Assembly: GCA_021828865.1 (NCBI GenBank)
Contig: JAJZCW010000001.1
Location: forward strand, 19,851-83,850
Reading direction: 5' to 3'
DNA length: 64,000 bases
Origin: Bacillota bacterium
Lineage (GTDB): Bacteria > Bacillota > Bacilli > Alicyclobacillales > SLC66
The stretch's first letter is position 1. Each line of letters opens with the position of its first letter. Position numbers and translations under genes: made by a program. Shown in pieces: positions 11,999-18,443 of the stretch. Below the pieces are notes generated by a model. The model saw nothing but the letters and a program-made list of their open reading frames with translations. It was not told the origin of the DNA and did no database searches.

Positions 11999-12853
11999 CT
12001 ACCTCGTCAAAAGAATATTGTCGATCAGACGGGTATTGCCAACAAAAGCAGCAATCGCGCATACACCCTCTTCCCCAGCTTCAAGCTTGTGAATGGGTTG
12101 TAATTTTTTTAAATCCACACAGGTCAAATAGTCGATGCGGATCCTTTCAAGCGATGCGAAGTGGGAGCGTTCCGCATCAATAAGTTGATCCAGGTCGTTT
12201 GCGCCTTCCGCCACATGCAACTGAATTCGCTTAAGTGACTTTCGCAATTCCGGTGCAATTGTTCGTTCTTCTGGCGTTAAATAGGCGTTTCTGGAACTTT
12301 TCGCCAGTCCGTCTGCTTCCCTAACTGTCTCTACTCCGATAATTTCAACGGGTATCGAGAGGTCTTGTACGAGTCGTTTGACGATACTGAGCTGTTGAAA
12401 GTCTTTTTTCCCAAAGTAGGCGCGGTCGGGTTGAATAATATTAAACAATTTCGCAACCACCGTTGCCACGCCGTCAAAATGGCCTGGCCTTGAAGCGCCG
12501 CACAAATGGTCACCTAGTGCGTCCACGTGAATTTGCGTAAGTGCGCCCTCTTCACCGTACATTTCCGTTGCGGAAGGAGCGAAGATCGCATTTACTCCAC
12601 TCGCTTCACAAAAAGCCTGATCTTTTGGCAAGTCGCGCGGATATCGGTCAAAGTCTTCGTTAGGACCAAATTGCAGTGGATTGACAAAAATAGAGACGAT
12701 CACCTGCTGATTGTCCTCTCTCGCATGCTCGATCAAAGAGCCGTGGCCATCGTGTAAGAAACCCATGGTGGGGACAAAGCCAATGGTTTCCCCTCTCCTC
12801 TTTGCTTGTTCAACGTATATACGAATGTCTTCTATGCTGTGTATCGTTATCAA
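11999..12853 (-). CDS. panC: Pantothenate synthetase
   Basis: A 284-aa ligase that joins pantoate and beta-alanine with ATP to make pantothenate. The ATP-binding GFVPTMGFLHDGH motif is at residues ~25-37, then VSIFVNPLQFGPNEDFDRYPR, the KMSKS-like region RNAYLTPEER, and FGKKDFQQL. Full length. The TTG start overlaps the panB stop (ATTGA), so it is coupled to panB. PanD, which supplies beta-alanine in B. subtilis from the next gene, is missing from this cluster. Confidence 0.97.
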   Translation of the reverse strand: MITIHSIEDIRIYVEQAKRRGETIGFVPTMGFLHDGHGSLIEHAREDNQQVIVSIFVNPLQFGPNEDFDRYPRDLPKDQAFCEASGVNAIFAPSATEMYGEEGALTQIHVDALGDHLCGASRPGHFDGVATVVAKLFNIIQPDRAYFGKKDFQQLSIVKRLVQDLSIPVEIIGVETVREADGLAKSSRNAYLTPEERTIAPELRKSLKRIQLHVAEGANDLDQLIDAERSHFASLERIRIDYLTCVDLKKLQPIHKLEAGEEGVCAIAAFVGNTRLIDNILLTR

Positions 12854-13716
12854 TGATTGGTATCCCCTTTGATTTTAGCGTATAGTTGCACAAAATCATG
12901 ATCTCCGACTTCATAGCTATAGGCTGGAGATGGAAAAACAGCTTCCTTCACTTCATTCCGATAGGTGGATAATGCGGAAACGGCTTGCGTTCCAAGTTCA
13001 GCATATGATTTTACAAACTTTGGAGCCTTGCGATCGTAAATACCAAGCAGATCATGGAACACAAGGACTTGTCCTGCACAACCGTTTCCCGCGCCAATAC
13101 CGATGATCGGGATTGGCAACTGATCACTTAGAAAATTGGCGAGCGTTGAGGGGACGCATTCGAGTACTAGCATAAATGCTCCCGCTTCTACGATGGCTTG
13201 GGCATCACGAAGGATCTTTTCTGCAGTGGCTGTATCTTTACCCTGAACTCTAAACCCGCCGAGATTCAGCGCATTTTGCGGTGTCAGTCCCAGATGGCCG
13301 CAAACGGGAATCCCCGCATCAACTAACGCCTTGACGTGGTTAGCAATAGACTCTCCGCCTTCTAGCTTGACGCCATCCGCATAAGCTTCCTGCATAAGTC
13401 GTCCTGCATTTGTAAGTGTATTTTCAATACTCTTGTGATAACTGAGAAAAGGCATATCGACGAGCATCATCGTATTTGGCGCGCCACGTCTCACTGCTTT
13501 TGCGTGGTGGACCATATCCTCCAAGGTAACAGGAATGGTGTTGTCATAACCTAGTACAACCATACCCAGCGAGTCGCCAACGAGGATCACATCAACATCT
13601 GATTTTTCTGCGATGCTGGATTGTGCCGCATCATAGGCTGTTACCATCACGATTTTCTCCCCTTTGGAAAAAAGGGATTTCAGACTGACGGTGGTATGAC
13701 GTTTTTTATCCGCCAA
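12850..13716 (-). CDS. panB: 3-methyl-2-oxobutanoate hydroxymethyltransferase
   Basis: A 288-aa enzyme that transfers a hydroxymethyl group from methylene-tetrahydrofolate to ketoisovalerate, the first committed step to pantothenate. Diagnostic blocks are MVTAYDAAQSSIAEKSDVDVILVGDSLGMV (metal ligand Asp in GDS), VDMPFLSYHK, KLEGGE, HLGLTPQ and IGIGAGNGCAGQVLVFHDLLG. The start is TTG with AAGGAGG upstream. It overlaps panC at its end. It sits downstream of the cca-birA fusion, as panB follows birA in B. subtilis. Confidence 0.97.
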   Translation of the reverse strand: MADKKRHTTVSLKSLFSKGEKIVMVTAYDAAQSSIAEKSDVDVILVGDSLGMVVLGYDNTIPVTLEDMVHHAKAVRRGAPNTMMLVDMPFLSYHKSIENTLTNAGRLMQEAYADGVKLEGGESIANHVKALVDAGIPVCGHLGLTPQNALNLGGFRVQGKDTATAEKILRDAQAIVEAGAFMLVLECVPSTLANFLSDQLPIPIIGIGAGNGCAGQVLVFHDLLGIYDRKAPKFVKSYAELGTQAVSALSTYRNEVKEAVFPSPAYSYEVGDHDFVQLYAKIKGDTNH

Positions 13717-13746: not shown

Positions 13747-15774
13747 TTATACTCTATCCTCACTATTTTCAATGATTTCGCCGCTTCGAATAGGAATAAC
13801 CGATCCCTGATCGTTACCAATCCATAGCGTTCCTTCTTCATCAATGCGTTGTGCGATGCCTATCACCGTGTCATGACCTTGTCGGACATGTACATGTTGT
13901 CCAAGTGTAATACAATAGCGTTCATATTCTTCTTTCTGGTCGCTGAATCTTTTTTTAGCCTGATACTTTAGCAGCAACTCGTAGAATTCGTCGATTAGAC
14001 GGGCTGTCAGCATATTGATCGAAATGGATTTCATTTGCGTGATCTTTAGTGAAGTCACTTTACTTTTCAAATCGTCCGGGAAATCATTTAGTTCCGCATT
14101 GACGTTGATGCCAATGCCGACCACCAGGTGCACTTCTTTATCTATCGTGCGCATTTCAGTGAGAATTCCGCAAACCTTTTTTCCCTCAATAAAAATGTCA
14201 TTGGGCCATTTGATCCTTGCTTTTTCGATGCCGATACTGGACAACGCAGAGCGAACCGTCAAAGCGGCAAAAAGTGGCCACTCTTGGAGTCTATATCTAT
14301 CCTCGCCCTCAAGTCGAAAAGCGAGCGATAACGCCAGCCCTTTTCCCGGCGGTAAGACCCATGCCCTTCCTTGTCTTCCCCTTCCGCTCTCCTGATGATC
14401 AGTAAAGACAGCTAACATTGGAACTCTAGCTTCTGCAATCTTTTCTCTTGCCACGTCATTAGTGGATGATAATTTCTTGTATTCGTATATCAAAAGGTTT
14501 TTGGGAGCAGTCTGAAGCAATTTGCGTATCACTTGTTCGTCGGTGACTGTTTCCATGATCCAATCATTCGCTTCTTTCATCAGAGATTCGTAGGTGTTAT
14601 CGAGCTGATTGTTCGCCACTAGATCAAATAAGTGCTCGAGTGCCATTCCGATCATCGGACCTTGTACTGATAAGTCTCTAATGAGGTCGCTGCCTTGAAT
14701 GGCTAAATCTTTCAGTGTGCGAATCGGATGTTCATTTAGCCATTTAATAGAAAGTGCCAATTCGTCATCCAGTGTTAACAAGGGGTCTTGAATAACGTTT
14801 AACCGCACTGCTCGTTCTAACAAACTTTCTCCATAGCTTGATAACGCTTTGCCAAATGGAAGCGTCATACGAATTGGTGACGTCATCCGCCATGTTTGTG
14901 ATGCCTGTACGAGCGCTAGGACTTCTTCAATACCTTTTCTGCTGTAACGAAGTGTTCTCATCATGGTCTCGAGCCTTGCGTCCGCGTTGGATTCCGTCAA
15001 CAAAAAAATTAATGCCAAGCGGTCATAGACACCATCTACTTCAGTAATTTGGTGACAACAGGTAGAAAATAAAAAGTCATTCCATCCCGTCCATTTGCTA
15101 ACGATGGCATCCGGTATCCAATCACATTTAGGTGCTGTCAGTGCGCCAAGGAACTTGCTCCACTCCTCCAGCCTTCGTTCTGCGGCCACTTTGTCCAGAA
15201 AAGAGGCGGAAGATGATAACGCTGCCATTGTTGATTCAGCAATAGTAAAGCCAAGTGTGGCGGCAAACCGAAATGCGCGCGCCACGCGAAGACCATCTTC
15301 CTGGAACCTGGATTTCGCGTCTCCTACGGCGCGAACGATTTTTGCCAGGAGATCGTCATATCCATGAAAAGGGTCCCGAAGTTCCCCATTTTGATCCATG
15401 GCCATGGCATTGATCGTAAAATCTCTGCGGGAAAGATCTCCGACAAGGTTGGTGTCAAAATGAACATAGCGGGGATGCCTGCCATCGTCATACGGTCCCT
15501 CCTCGCGAAAAGTGGTGACCTCAAACCAGTGGTCATGTTCATAGACACTGACCGTGCCATGAGCAATTCCGGTAGGCAACGTCTTCGCAAAAAGTTGGAT
15601 GATCTTTTCTGGCGTGGCGGAAGTGGCGATATCAATATCGCTCACCTGTCGCTCTAAAATCGTATCGCGAACTGCCCCTCCGACGATATACGCTTCTTCC
15701 CCACTTTTCTCAATCGTTTGTAATAAACTTTTGGCTAGTTGAAAATTCTCTGTGGATGGAAATATGATTTTCAT
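13747..15774 (-). CDS. Fused CCA-adding tRNA nucleotidyltransferase and biotin-protein ligase
   Basis: A single uninterrupted 675-aa frame. Residues 1-~405 are a Cca-type nucleotidyltransferase: GGAVRD (32-37), catalytic DID (46-48), RRDFTINAMA (116-125), DPFHGYDDL, and a C-terminal helical part with IRTLKDLAIQG. Residues ~427-675 are the biotin ligase catalytic and C-terminal domains of BirA: LSSTND, GRGRQGR (464-470), KWPNDI (522-527), GKKVCGILTE, VVGIGINVN. The N-terminal helix-turn-helix of Bacillus BirA is missing; residues ~406-426 act as a short linker. In B. subtilis cca and birA are adjacent separate genes, so fusion by loss of the stop and of the DNA-binding domain is inferred. The start overlaps the bshA stop by four bases. 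Confidence 0.93.
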   Translation of the reverse strand: MKIIFPSTENFQLAKSLLQTIEKSGEEAYIVGGAVRDTILERQVSDIDIATSATPEKIIQLFAKTLPTGIAHGTVSVYEHDHWFEVTTFREEGPYDDGRHPRYVHFDTNLVGDLSRRDFTINAMAMDQNGELRDPFHGYDDLLAKIVRAVGDAKSRFQEDGLRVARAFRFAATLGFTIAESTMAALSSSASFLDKVAAERRLEEWSKFLGALTAPKCDWIPDAIVSKWTGWNDFLFSTCCHQITEVDGVYDRLALIFLLTESNADARLETMMRTLRYSRKGIEEVLALVQASQTWRMTSPIRMTLPFGKALSSYGESLLERAVRLNVIQDPLLTLDDELALSIKWLNEHPIRTLKDLAIQGSDLIRDLSVQGPMIGMALEHLFDLVANNQLDNTYESLMKEANDWIMETVTDEQVIRKLLQTAPKNLLIYEYKKLSSTNDVAREKIAEARVPMLAVFTDHQESGRGRQGRAWVLPPGKGLALSLAFRLEGEDRYRLQEWPLFAALTVRSALSSIGIEKARIKWPNDIFIEGKKVCGILTEMRTIDKEVHLVVGIGINVNAELNDFPDDLKSKVTSLKITQMKSISINMLTARLIDEFYELLLKYQAKKRFSDQKEEYERYCITLGQHVHVRQGHDTVIGIAQRIDEEGTLWIGNDQGSVIPIRSGEIIENSEDRV

Positions 15775-16883
15775 TGCAAAGATTCGTAGACATCTTCGTA
15801 TTTTTTTACCTGCTCATCCAACGTAAAAAGTTTGGCGCGCTTTCTCGCCGCCTTGGAAAAATGTTGCCACATGTCCTGATTCTTTAGCAGTTGCAGTGCA
15901 TTTTCCGCCATGTCTTCAACGTTTCCCACCGGGGATAAAAATCCAGAGTGCCCATGCTCCACCACTTCCGGAATGCCTCCAATGATCGATCCAATCACAG
16001 GTACGCCGCAAGCCATGGCCTCCAGTGCCACGAGACCAAAACTCTCTTTTTCAGAAGGCAGCAAAAACAAATCAGCAAGCGAGTATAAAGAGGCAATTTC
16101 ATCCTGTTTGCCTAAAAAAAACACATCTCGATCCAATCCTCTTTGGTGCGTAATCGTTCTTGCCAGTTCAAGATCGGGGCCCTCCCCGACGAGTAGCAAT
16201 TTGGAAGGGATGCGTTCCCTTACTTTATGAAAAACGGCCAGCACATCAGGCACGCGTTTTACACCGCGGAAGTTGGATACGTGCATCAGAATCTTTTCAT
16301 CATTTGGTGCGATCTTCTCTTTCCACGATGGTTTGGTGATGCGCCTAAATTCGTGGAGATCTACAAAGTTATAAATTTTTGTAATGGGACATTTAGTTTG
16401 AAAAACCTCATTAGTTTGCTCGATCAAGCTTTCGGAAACGGCCGTCACCGCATCGCTTTTTTCAATGCCAAGCCGAATGACGTCCCGCAATAAGGGATCC
16501 TGAGCCAAAACGGTCACATCGGTCCCATGAAGCGTGGTGACCACTTTCACCGATTTTTCCCCTAACATTTCCTTTGCTAAAAAAGCGCAGACCGCATAAG
16601 GAATCGCGTAATGGACATGCAGGATATCCAGTTGATAATTGCGTACCACATCGGCCATTTTTGCGGCTAGCGCCATATCATAGGGATTTTGGCGAAAAAC
16701 CGGATAAGACATGGGTTCCACTTCATGAATATAGATGTTATCCAAAAACAGCCCGAGTCGAAACGGGATTCCTGAAACAATAAAATGAACCTCATGCCCT
16801 CTTTTGGCCAAGGCTTTGCCAAGCTCAGTCGCAATCGCTCCGGACCCACCGAGCGTCGGGTAACAGCTAATACCAATTCGCAT
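15771..16883 (-). CDS. bshA: N-acetyl-alpha-D-glucosaminyl L-malate synthase
   Basis: A glycosyltransferase (GT4) that makes GlcNAc-malate from UDP-GlcNAc and malate, the first step of bacillithiol synthesis. Diagnostic features are the N-terminal GISCYPTLGGSGAIATELG, HVHYAIPYAV, TTLHGTDVT, HVSNFRGVKR and the nucleotide-sugar site LLPSEKESFGLVALEAMACG. I place the start at the ATG of MRIGIS (16883), 8 bases after AGAAG; ATGs 2 and 6 codons upstream are alternatives. In B. subtilis bshB1 lies between mgsA and bshA; here no deacetylase gene is present at that point. It is followed directly by the cca-birA fusion. Confidence 0.93.
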   Translation of the reverse strand: MRIGISCYPTLGGSGAIATELGKALAKRGHEVHFIVSGIPFRLGLFLDNIYIHEVEPMSYPVFRQNPYDMALAAKMADVVRNYQLDILHVHYAIPYAVCAFLAKEMLGEKSVKVVTTLHGTDVTVLAQDPLLRDVIRLGIEKSDAVTAVSESLIEQTNEVFQTKCPITKIYNFVDLHEFRRITKPSWKEKIAPNDEKILMHVSNFRGVKRVPDVLAVFHKVRERIPSKLLLVGEGPDLELARTITHQRGLDRDVFFLGKQDEIASLYSLADLFLLPSEKESFGLVALEAMACGVPVIGSIIGGIPEVVEHGHSGFLSPVGNVEDMAENALQLLKNQDMWQHFSKAARKRAKLFTLDEQVKKYEDVYESLQ

Positions 16884-16919
16884 ATGCATATCTTCTTTCA
16901 TAGGATTAGAGAATCAAGA

Positions 16920-17315
16920 TTAGTCCAGTAACTTGCGCCAGTTTAAGTCTCCTCTCCACAACCCGCGAATGAGCATTTCTGCAGTAGCGAGGTTAGTGGC
17001 CACAGGCACTTGATGCACATCGCATAAGCGAAGCAATGCGATAATATCCGGCTCATGCGGTTGCGCCATCAGAGGATCACGCAAAAAAATGAGTAAATCT
17101 AGTTGGTTTTCTGCGATCAAGGCACCGATTTGTTGGTCTCCACCAAGTGGACCGCTTTGGAAGCGATGGATTTGGAGACTGGTTACCTCGGCAATTCGTT
17201 TGCCCGTTGTACCAGTGGCATAGAGCTCATGAGGCTTAAAAAGCGTCTCATAGGCGATGGCGAAATTAACTATTTCATCTTTTTTTGCGTCATGTGCGAC
17301 AAGCGCAATGTGCAT
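16920..17315 (-). CDS. mgsA: Methylglyoxal synthase
   Basis: A ~131-aa enzyme converting dihydroxyacetone phosphate to methylglyoxal, a bypass of lower glycolysis. Visible family blocks are [23 protein letters not shown], the phosphate-binding [22 protein letters not shown] and [23 protein letters not shown]. Three successive ATG codons follow GGGAGAG; the third gives the best spacing. It sits between dapB and bshA, as in the B. subtilis dapB-mgsA-bshB1-bshA order. Bacillithiol (bshA) helps detoxify methylglyoxal, so the linkage is functionally sensible. Confidence 0.95.
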
Positions 17316-17335
17316 CATCATCTCTCCCTTTTTGC

Positions 17336-18103
17336 TTAAAAAAGAAAGTGCTCAAGTCCATCCACCAGTCCATTGACACTTTGGATACTGCGGATACCAA
17401 GCAGTACGCCTGGCATGAAACTTTCTCTCGACATCGTATCATGCCTTATAGTCAGTCGCTCCCCTTGTCCACCAAAAATGACTTCCTGATGTGCAATAAA
17501 CCCAGGCAATCTGACACTGTGAACAGGGATACCATCGATAAATTCAGCTTTTCCAGGGTGATGGAAATGAGCCTTTTCTGACTTATCCTTCATCGCATTG
17601 AATAATTTTTCTGCCGTCTTTTTCGCAGTGCCAGACGGTGCGTCTTTCTTGCCAGGATGATGGTATTCAATGATTTCCACATCACTTAAAAAAGGAACGA
17701 TCATGGTGGAGACCTTCATCATTAACAGTGCGCCAATTGCAAAATTAGGCGCATAGAGCCCACCAATTTCAGCGTCACGCAATCTCCTGTCGTAGTCGAC
17801 AAGTTCTTGTGGTTGAAATCCTGTGGTGCCTATGATGGGGCGAATTCCCATTTCAATGCTGGTCAGGATGTTTTGTCTTGCTGCTTCAGCATGCGTAAAA
17901 TCAACGAGTACATCAGGAGAGGTGTCGATCAGGCACTCTCTGATATTTGTGTAATAAGGGACATTTGGCAATTCCACTTCTTGTCGGCGCGTATGTACAA
18001 TGCCTGCCAATAGTTCCATGTCAGGTGCAGCGGCCACACTTTTGCAGGTTTCGCTGCCCATTTTACCATAGGCGCCAGCCACTGCCACTTTAATTTTTTT
18101 CAC
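17336..18103 (-). CDS. dapB: 4-hydroxy-tetrahydrodipicolinate reductase
   Basis: A ~255-aa NAD(P)H-dependent reductase of the lysine and diaminopimelate pathway; its product also leads to dipicolinate in spores. N-terminal nucleotide-binding AGAYGKMG, the DFTHAEA block, [20 protein letters not shown] and the catalytic [15 protein letters not shown] (His and Lys) are all present. The best start is GTG at 18101-18103, which overlaps the end of ypjD by 14 bases. The longer frame adds 15 residues unlike the family. Confidence 0.95.
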
Positions 18104-18443
18104 GCAAAATCCCAGCTTCCTCTTGCTTTTTTGTCCATCTGTTGGCATCGCGAGTTTGAAACTTGTCCATCACCTGGTGATGACTAGTCTCTAGATCAAT
18201 ATGGAGTGAATTGGCAAGGCAGGCGATCACGAACATCATATCGCCTAGTTCAAGCGCAATGCTGCCATCTGGCTCTATTGCCTTTTTCCTTTTTTCACCA
18301 AAGTGATGATTGACTTCCCTTGCAAGTTCCCCCAATTCTTCTGTGAGTCTCACAACGAGCGACATGGGAGGAAAATATCCTTCTTCAAACTGGCCTATGT
18401 AGCGGTCCACCTCATCTTGCATCGCTTTTAGTGTCAAATCCAT
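18090..18443 (-). CDS. ypjD: MazG-like nucleotide pyrophosphohydrolase, YpjD type
   Basis: A 117-aa all-helical MazG-family protein. RLTEELGELAREVNHHFGEKRK carries the EExxE metal-binding motif, and LELGDMMFVIACLAN carries the second ExxD motif. Such proteins hydrolyse nucleoside triphosphates to monophosphates and pyrophosphate, but the natural substrate is unknown. The start is ATG at 18441-18443, eight bases after AGGAG. In B. subtilis ypjD also precedes dapB. Its own promoter lies ~35-60 bases upstream. Confidence 0.85.
   Translation of the reverse strand: MDLTLKAMQDEVDRYIGQFEEGYFPPMSLVVRLTEELGELAREVNHHFGEKRKKAIEPDGSIALELGDMMFVIACLANSLHIDLETSHHQVMDKFQTRDANRWTKKQEEAGILREKN

Follow-up and report, generated by a model that had tools for sequence, protein, structure and literature searches.

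A natural fusion of a CCA-adding enzyme with a biotin protein ligase that lacks the winged helix in a lineage of Bacilli

The window analyzed here, a 64,000-nucleotide stretch of DNA from a member of the Bacillota, contains a single gene in which a CCA-adding enzyme (Cca) is continued, in the same reading frame, by a biotin protein ligase (BPL) devoid of its winged helix. The fusion is real and conserved, and most likely just places two known enzymes on one chain in a mechanistically ordinary way, with each part working as it does elsewhere. We regard it as very probable that the gene specifies a bifunctional housekeeping protein, with a class II CCA-adding enzyme at its N terminus and a group I BPL at its C terminus, and that it was derived from an ancestral cca-birA neighborhood in two steps. 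This reading draws on sequence evidence of several kinds, including the frame, the domains and motifs, their conservation, the presence of a sole detectable tRNA nucleotidyltransferase, a second BirA with its operator, and the order of events in the tree. An earlier note on this DNA had proposed a natural Cca-biotin ligase fusion without the winged helix, and this proposal is upheld; its further suggestions, that the winged helix was lost as part of the fusion and that repression of the biotin genes was affected in consequence, are not, the latter at the level of the genome.

The fused cca-birA gene (13747..15774, minus strand) starts with ATG and runs for 675 codons with no internal stops, encoding a protein of 76.3 kDa; this single open frame coincides exactly with the one described previously, and domains of both enzymes score over the Pfam and NCBIfam cut-offs. 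The CCA-adding half (residues 8-401; 14572..15753, minus strand) comprises the head, the RNA-binding neck, and the C-terminal domain, corresponding to PolyA_pol (PF01743; residues 28-148, 2.5e-35), PolyA_pol_RNAbd (PF12627; 175-209), and tRNA_NucTran2_2 (PF13735; 256-401). It also matches the CCA tRNA nucleotidyltransferase model PRK13299 with 302.8 bits (cut-off 290), and carries the motifs GGAVRD (residue 32), DIDIA (residue 46, the DxD motif), RRDFTINAMA (residue 116), and the EDxxR template motif (residue 159), a combination that identifies it as a class II tRNA nucleotidyltransferase. A junction of about 30 residues (402-431; 14482..14571, minus strand) leads to the ligase half (residues 432-669; 13768..14481, minus strand), which is recognized as a BPL by BPL_LplA_LipB (PF03099; 435-557, 6.8e-17), BPL_C (PF02237; 623-668), and the birA_ligase model TIGR00121 (173.5 bits, cut-off 83.1). 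Its motifs GRGRQGR, KWPND, and GIGINVN lie at residues 464, 522, and 553, so that all six motifs listed in the earlier note are in place. No helix-turn-helix (HTH) family exceeded its cut-off in the Pfam scan of the 675-residue protein, and the KWPND motif lies about 120 residues past the end of Cca, while most winged-helix BirAs have it at least about 177 residues from the beginning of the open frame. The fused ligase thus has the catalytic and C-terminal domains of group I, with the DNA-binding domain absent, and is devoid of the N-terminal winged helix-turn-helix that distinguishes group II BirA.

The gene resides in a cluster ordered as in B. subtilis, in which ypjD-dapB-mgsA-bshB1-bshA-cca-birA has been described with cca and birA as separate genes (PMC5372718), in agreement with the earlier note. 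All genes of the cluster are on the minus strand. Upstream are a bshA-like glycosyltransferase gene (15771..16901), a methylglyoxal synthase-like mgsA (16920..17321), and a dihydrodipicolinate reductase-like dapB (17336..18148), the latter two named by sequence resemblance and cluster order; downstream lie a panB-like gene (12850..13716), preceded by a strong ribosome-binding site (AAGGAGGT), and a panC-like gene (11999..12853). The stop codon of bshA overlaps the ATG of the fused gene by four bases (ATGA), and translation of the two is therefore probably coupled. The bshB1 gene is absent from the window (16901-16920) and from the related genome G005, whereas several relatives, G015 and G011 among them, have it between mgsA and bshA; in G006, mgsA is also absent between dapB and bshA.

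The same fusion occurs in two other species of the genus, G005 (85% identity) and G006 (53%), and in all three genomes the gene lies between bshA and panB. The catalytic motifs are invariant across these three congeners and in an independent fusion from another family (G069, described below). A stop codon or frameshift at the junction, proposed earlier as the observation that would overturn the fusion, was sought and not found, and the frame is open in G005 and G006 as well. A comparison of junction codons 402-432 in the window with those of G005 shows 5, 2, and 7 differing bases at codon positions 1, 2, and 3, a coding-like pattern, albeit with few changes; the corresponding dN/dS of 0.55 over 31 codons indicates mildly purifying selection only.

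Concerning the origin of the truncated ligase, all clustered biotin ligases examined in the family, whether fused or separate, are without the HTH, including eight separate ones in which it is absent by Pfam, and its loss can no longer be considered part of the fusion. These ligases form one clade with a support of 100/100, sister to the winged-helix BirAs that adjoin cca in a related family. Within the family, cca and birA are adjacent and separate in G016 and G017, share one frame with a single TGA between them in G015, and in five clusters that were read (G001, G003, G007, G011, and G014; genera g2, g3, g4, g7, and g8) cca is gone. In these five clusters (L222, L224, L217, L218, and L220) cca no longer stands between bshA and birA, and those of the genomes with a cca match (G007 is not among them) encode a divergent Cca at another, unlinked place. 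Since the HTH-less clade includes fused and unfused members alike, the tree indicates that the winged helix was lost first and that the fusion followed later in the genus of the window. Such a loss is biochemically easy, as full ligase activity is retained when the N-terminal domain of B. subtilis BirA is removed (PMC4016012). A winged-helix-less clustered biotin ligase directly after cca was also observed in a distant family (G359, L232:2851-3705, plus strand), and the winged helix has therefore probably been lost more than once.

The absence of the winged helix had been taken to mean that biotin genes could no longer be repressed by this protein. The consequence for regulation does not hold at the level of the genome. 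The search for a second BirA with a helix-turn-helix, recommended in the earlier note, revealed a full-length one (HTH_11, 6.9e-15) directly behind bioY, and a canonical BirA operator, ATTGTTAACC-N14-AGTTAACAAT, lies upstream of bioY. This palindrome is conserved in G005, G006, and G007, and the bioY-linked BirAs constitute a clade of their own. A loss of biotin regulation is ruled out by this BirA and its operator; as judged from these sequences, the repressor role resides in the second BirA and the biotin switch is kept. A second BirA-operator-like palindrome (TTTGTTAACC...GGTTAACAAT) is found at G000:C31:52192-52219 (L237:1501-1528), ahead of a FabK-like gene, a thiolase, and an acyl-CoA ligase, and resembles the yhfUTS site to which BirA binds in B. 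subtilis (PMC4016012). As a BirA site, this GTTAAC palindrome is suggestive only, given that the backward control of the pattern also matched (4 vs 2).

Related arrangements have appeared elsewhere. A profile of the fusions retrieved an independent winged-helix-less Cca-BPL fusion of 703 residues in another family (G069, L234:5774-7885, plus strand), which is 34% identical to the window protein; no other Cca or BPL was detected in its genome, and there, panB and panC are not beside the fused gene. In a neighboring family, G047 encodes a Cca-winged helix-BPL fusion of 818 residues (L235:6035-8491, plus strand), a frame that may still yield BirA separately, while in G359 cca and the winged-helix-less BPL are adjacent, separate genes. 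There have been at least two, and probably three, independent fusions (g1, G069, and G047), and the cca-birA pair is thus one that fuses repeatedly. Of 398 genomes sampled from the phylum, that of the window alone passes a strict cut-off for an uninterrupted winged-helix-less fusion, and a sample of 398 from the class gives two uninterrupted fusions that pass; both counts are lower bounds, because the strict cut-off misses winged-helix fusions such as that of G047. The open-access literature searched (most subscription journals lie outside such a search) yielded no description of a Cca-biotin ligase fusion, and the NCBIfam scan returned no model for the combination, even though its matches included models whose names refer to other fusions of BirA and lipoate ligases. 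This is in line with the lack of a described precedent in the earlier note, and the fusion is apparently new as a domain combination.

The continuous frame could nevertheless give rise to two proteins, through an internal start or proteolysis at the junction, in which case the fusion would be merely genetic. A birA half that is still produced on its own would be expected to have kept a ribosome-binding site; consequently, the pairing energy of in-frame starts with the anti-Shine-Dalgarno sequence was evaluated at the junction, using separate birA genes as positive controls. The best starts of the separate birA genes of relatives pair at -6.5 to -12.5 kcal/mol in 14 of 14 cases, every one having a good ribosome-binding site, whereas in the window, G005, G006, and G069 no start closer than about 20 residues to the junction pairs more strongly than -4.1 kcal/mol. 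G006 lacks start codons altogether between residues 379 and 425, and a TTG about 25 residues ahead of the end of its Cca scores -5.6. The internal start that had been raised as a possible refutation is accordingly not supported by a test with positive controls. That test can detect such a site, as the G047 fusion demonstrates with an internal GTG preceded by AAGGAGG (-11.9 kcal/mol); this strong site in a related fusion also counts in favor of two products, as do the window's ATG codons at residues 399 and 407. Moreover, certain starts in the cluster operate without a Shine-Dalgarno sequence, namely those of bshA (0.6 kcal/mol) and of the fused gene itself (0.1 kcal/mol), which makes the test indicative only. 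Weak internal initiation or proteolysis at the junction may occur, but two separate proteins as the main outcome are unlikely.

It has also to be considered whether the fusion was selected because physically joining the enzymes ties tRNA 3'-end metabolism to biotin-dependent carboxylation, for instance by allostery or co-localization, the repeated fusions then being convergent, with the winged helix kept in G047. The recurrence in at least two, probably three, independent lineages and the retention of the fused state at 53% identity speak for this possibility. Nonetheless, repeated fusion is expected anyway, as cca and birA lie side by side in the same orientation, often in one frame, and several separate pairs stand one in-frame stop apart; in addition, the arrangement is rare, with one uninterrupted winged-helix-less fusion in the 398 phylum genomes. 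We know of no substrate or pathway shared by Cca and biotin ligase, and consider an adaptive linkage very unlikely.

In the genome to which the window belongs, PF01743 was found in the fused protein alone; the genome is 94% complete, and a further tRNA nucleotidyltransferase could lie in the missing part. By a simple string test (30 loci), 32 of 40 distinct tRNA genes end in CCA, while the others, both tRNA-Gln(UUG) genes found included, lack an encoded CCA. A sole PF01743 protein together with such tRNA genes implies that an active CCA-adding enzyme is expected to be needed; as the only tRNA nucleotidyltransferase found, the Cca half would be predicted to perform complete CCA addition. In B. 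subtilis, cca has been described as essential (PMC5372718). For the ligase half, the genome encodes candidate biotin acceptors, e.g., an AccB-like protein with EAMKL, and the most likely prediction is that it biotinylates biotin-dependent carboxylases. The complete second BirA in the same genome would allow this half to be a degenerate passenger, with all ligation performed elsewhere; this is highly improbable, given that no part of the fused protein is under stronger constraint than the BPL catalytic core (dN/dS 0.05-0.08, window vs G005), that all motifs are retained, and that the sole BPL found in G069 is the fused one. An assembly or sequencing artefact that erased a stop codon between two genes would take only one base change, as the single stop codon between the G015 genes illustrates, but is practically impossible, being ruled out by conservation in G005 and G006: three congeneric species with separate assemblies have one open frame, and the birA ribosome-binding site has been lost as well.

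We therefore return to a bifunctional housekeeping protein that arose in two steps. In the first, the clustered birA would have lost its winged helix in an ancestor of the family, biotin regulation in the genus presumably being handled by the second, full-length BirA behind bioY. In the second, which took place later in the genus of the window, the stop codon of cca and the ribosome-binding site of birA would have disappeared, leaving a single polypeptide whose translation begins at the cca start and is probably coupled to that of bshA. Its N-terminal half would build and repair tRNA 3' ends, and its C-terminal half would charge biotin-dependent carboxylases. Both halves are presumably catalytically active in the fused chain and act independently, and the fusion would bring no more than fixed co-expression. 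These genomes offer a natural series of gene fusion, from a ribosome-binding site between the genes, through genes one stop apart and a fusion with an internal site, to a fusion in which the site is lost. They also depict a biotin ligase/repressor whose catalytic and regulatory roles were divided over two genes before one of these became available for fusion. For annotation pipelines, they are a warning that a single gene may encompass both cca and birA.

Compared with known systems, the first half, whose best structure match is 1miv, resembles the class II Cca of Bacilli (PRK13299) in the match over residues 8-401, in its catalytic and template motifs, and in a genomic cluster that is the same as in B. 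subtilis, and differs in that a biotin protein ligase follows in the same chain. The second half is akin to group I BPLs (TIGR00121), defined as lacking a DNA-binding domain (PMC4016012), in its catalytic and C-terminal domains, GRGRxGR biotin loop, KWPND motif, and missing HTH; unlike them, it sits behind Cca and was derived within Bacilli from a clustered BirA. With the group II BirA of B. subtilis, whose gene adjoins cca in the ypjD operon (PMC5372718, PMC4016012), it shares the cluster position and the ligase domains, but it is fused and without the winged helix; hence, DNA binding is not predicted and regulation is left to the bioY-linked BirA. A precedent for a ligase joined to an unrelated housekeeping enzyme is provided by the fusion of BirA with type III pantothenate kinase (NCBIfam PRK13325/NF009862), in which the partner is another enzyme at the other end, and which the window protein matches only through the BPL domain.
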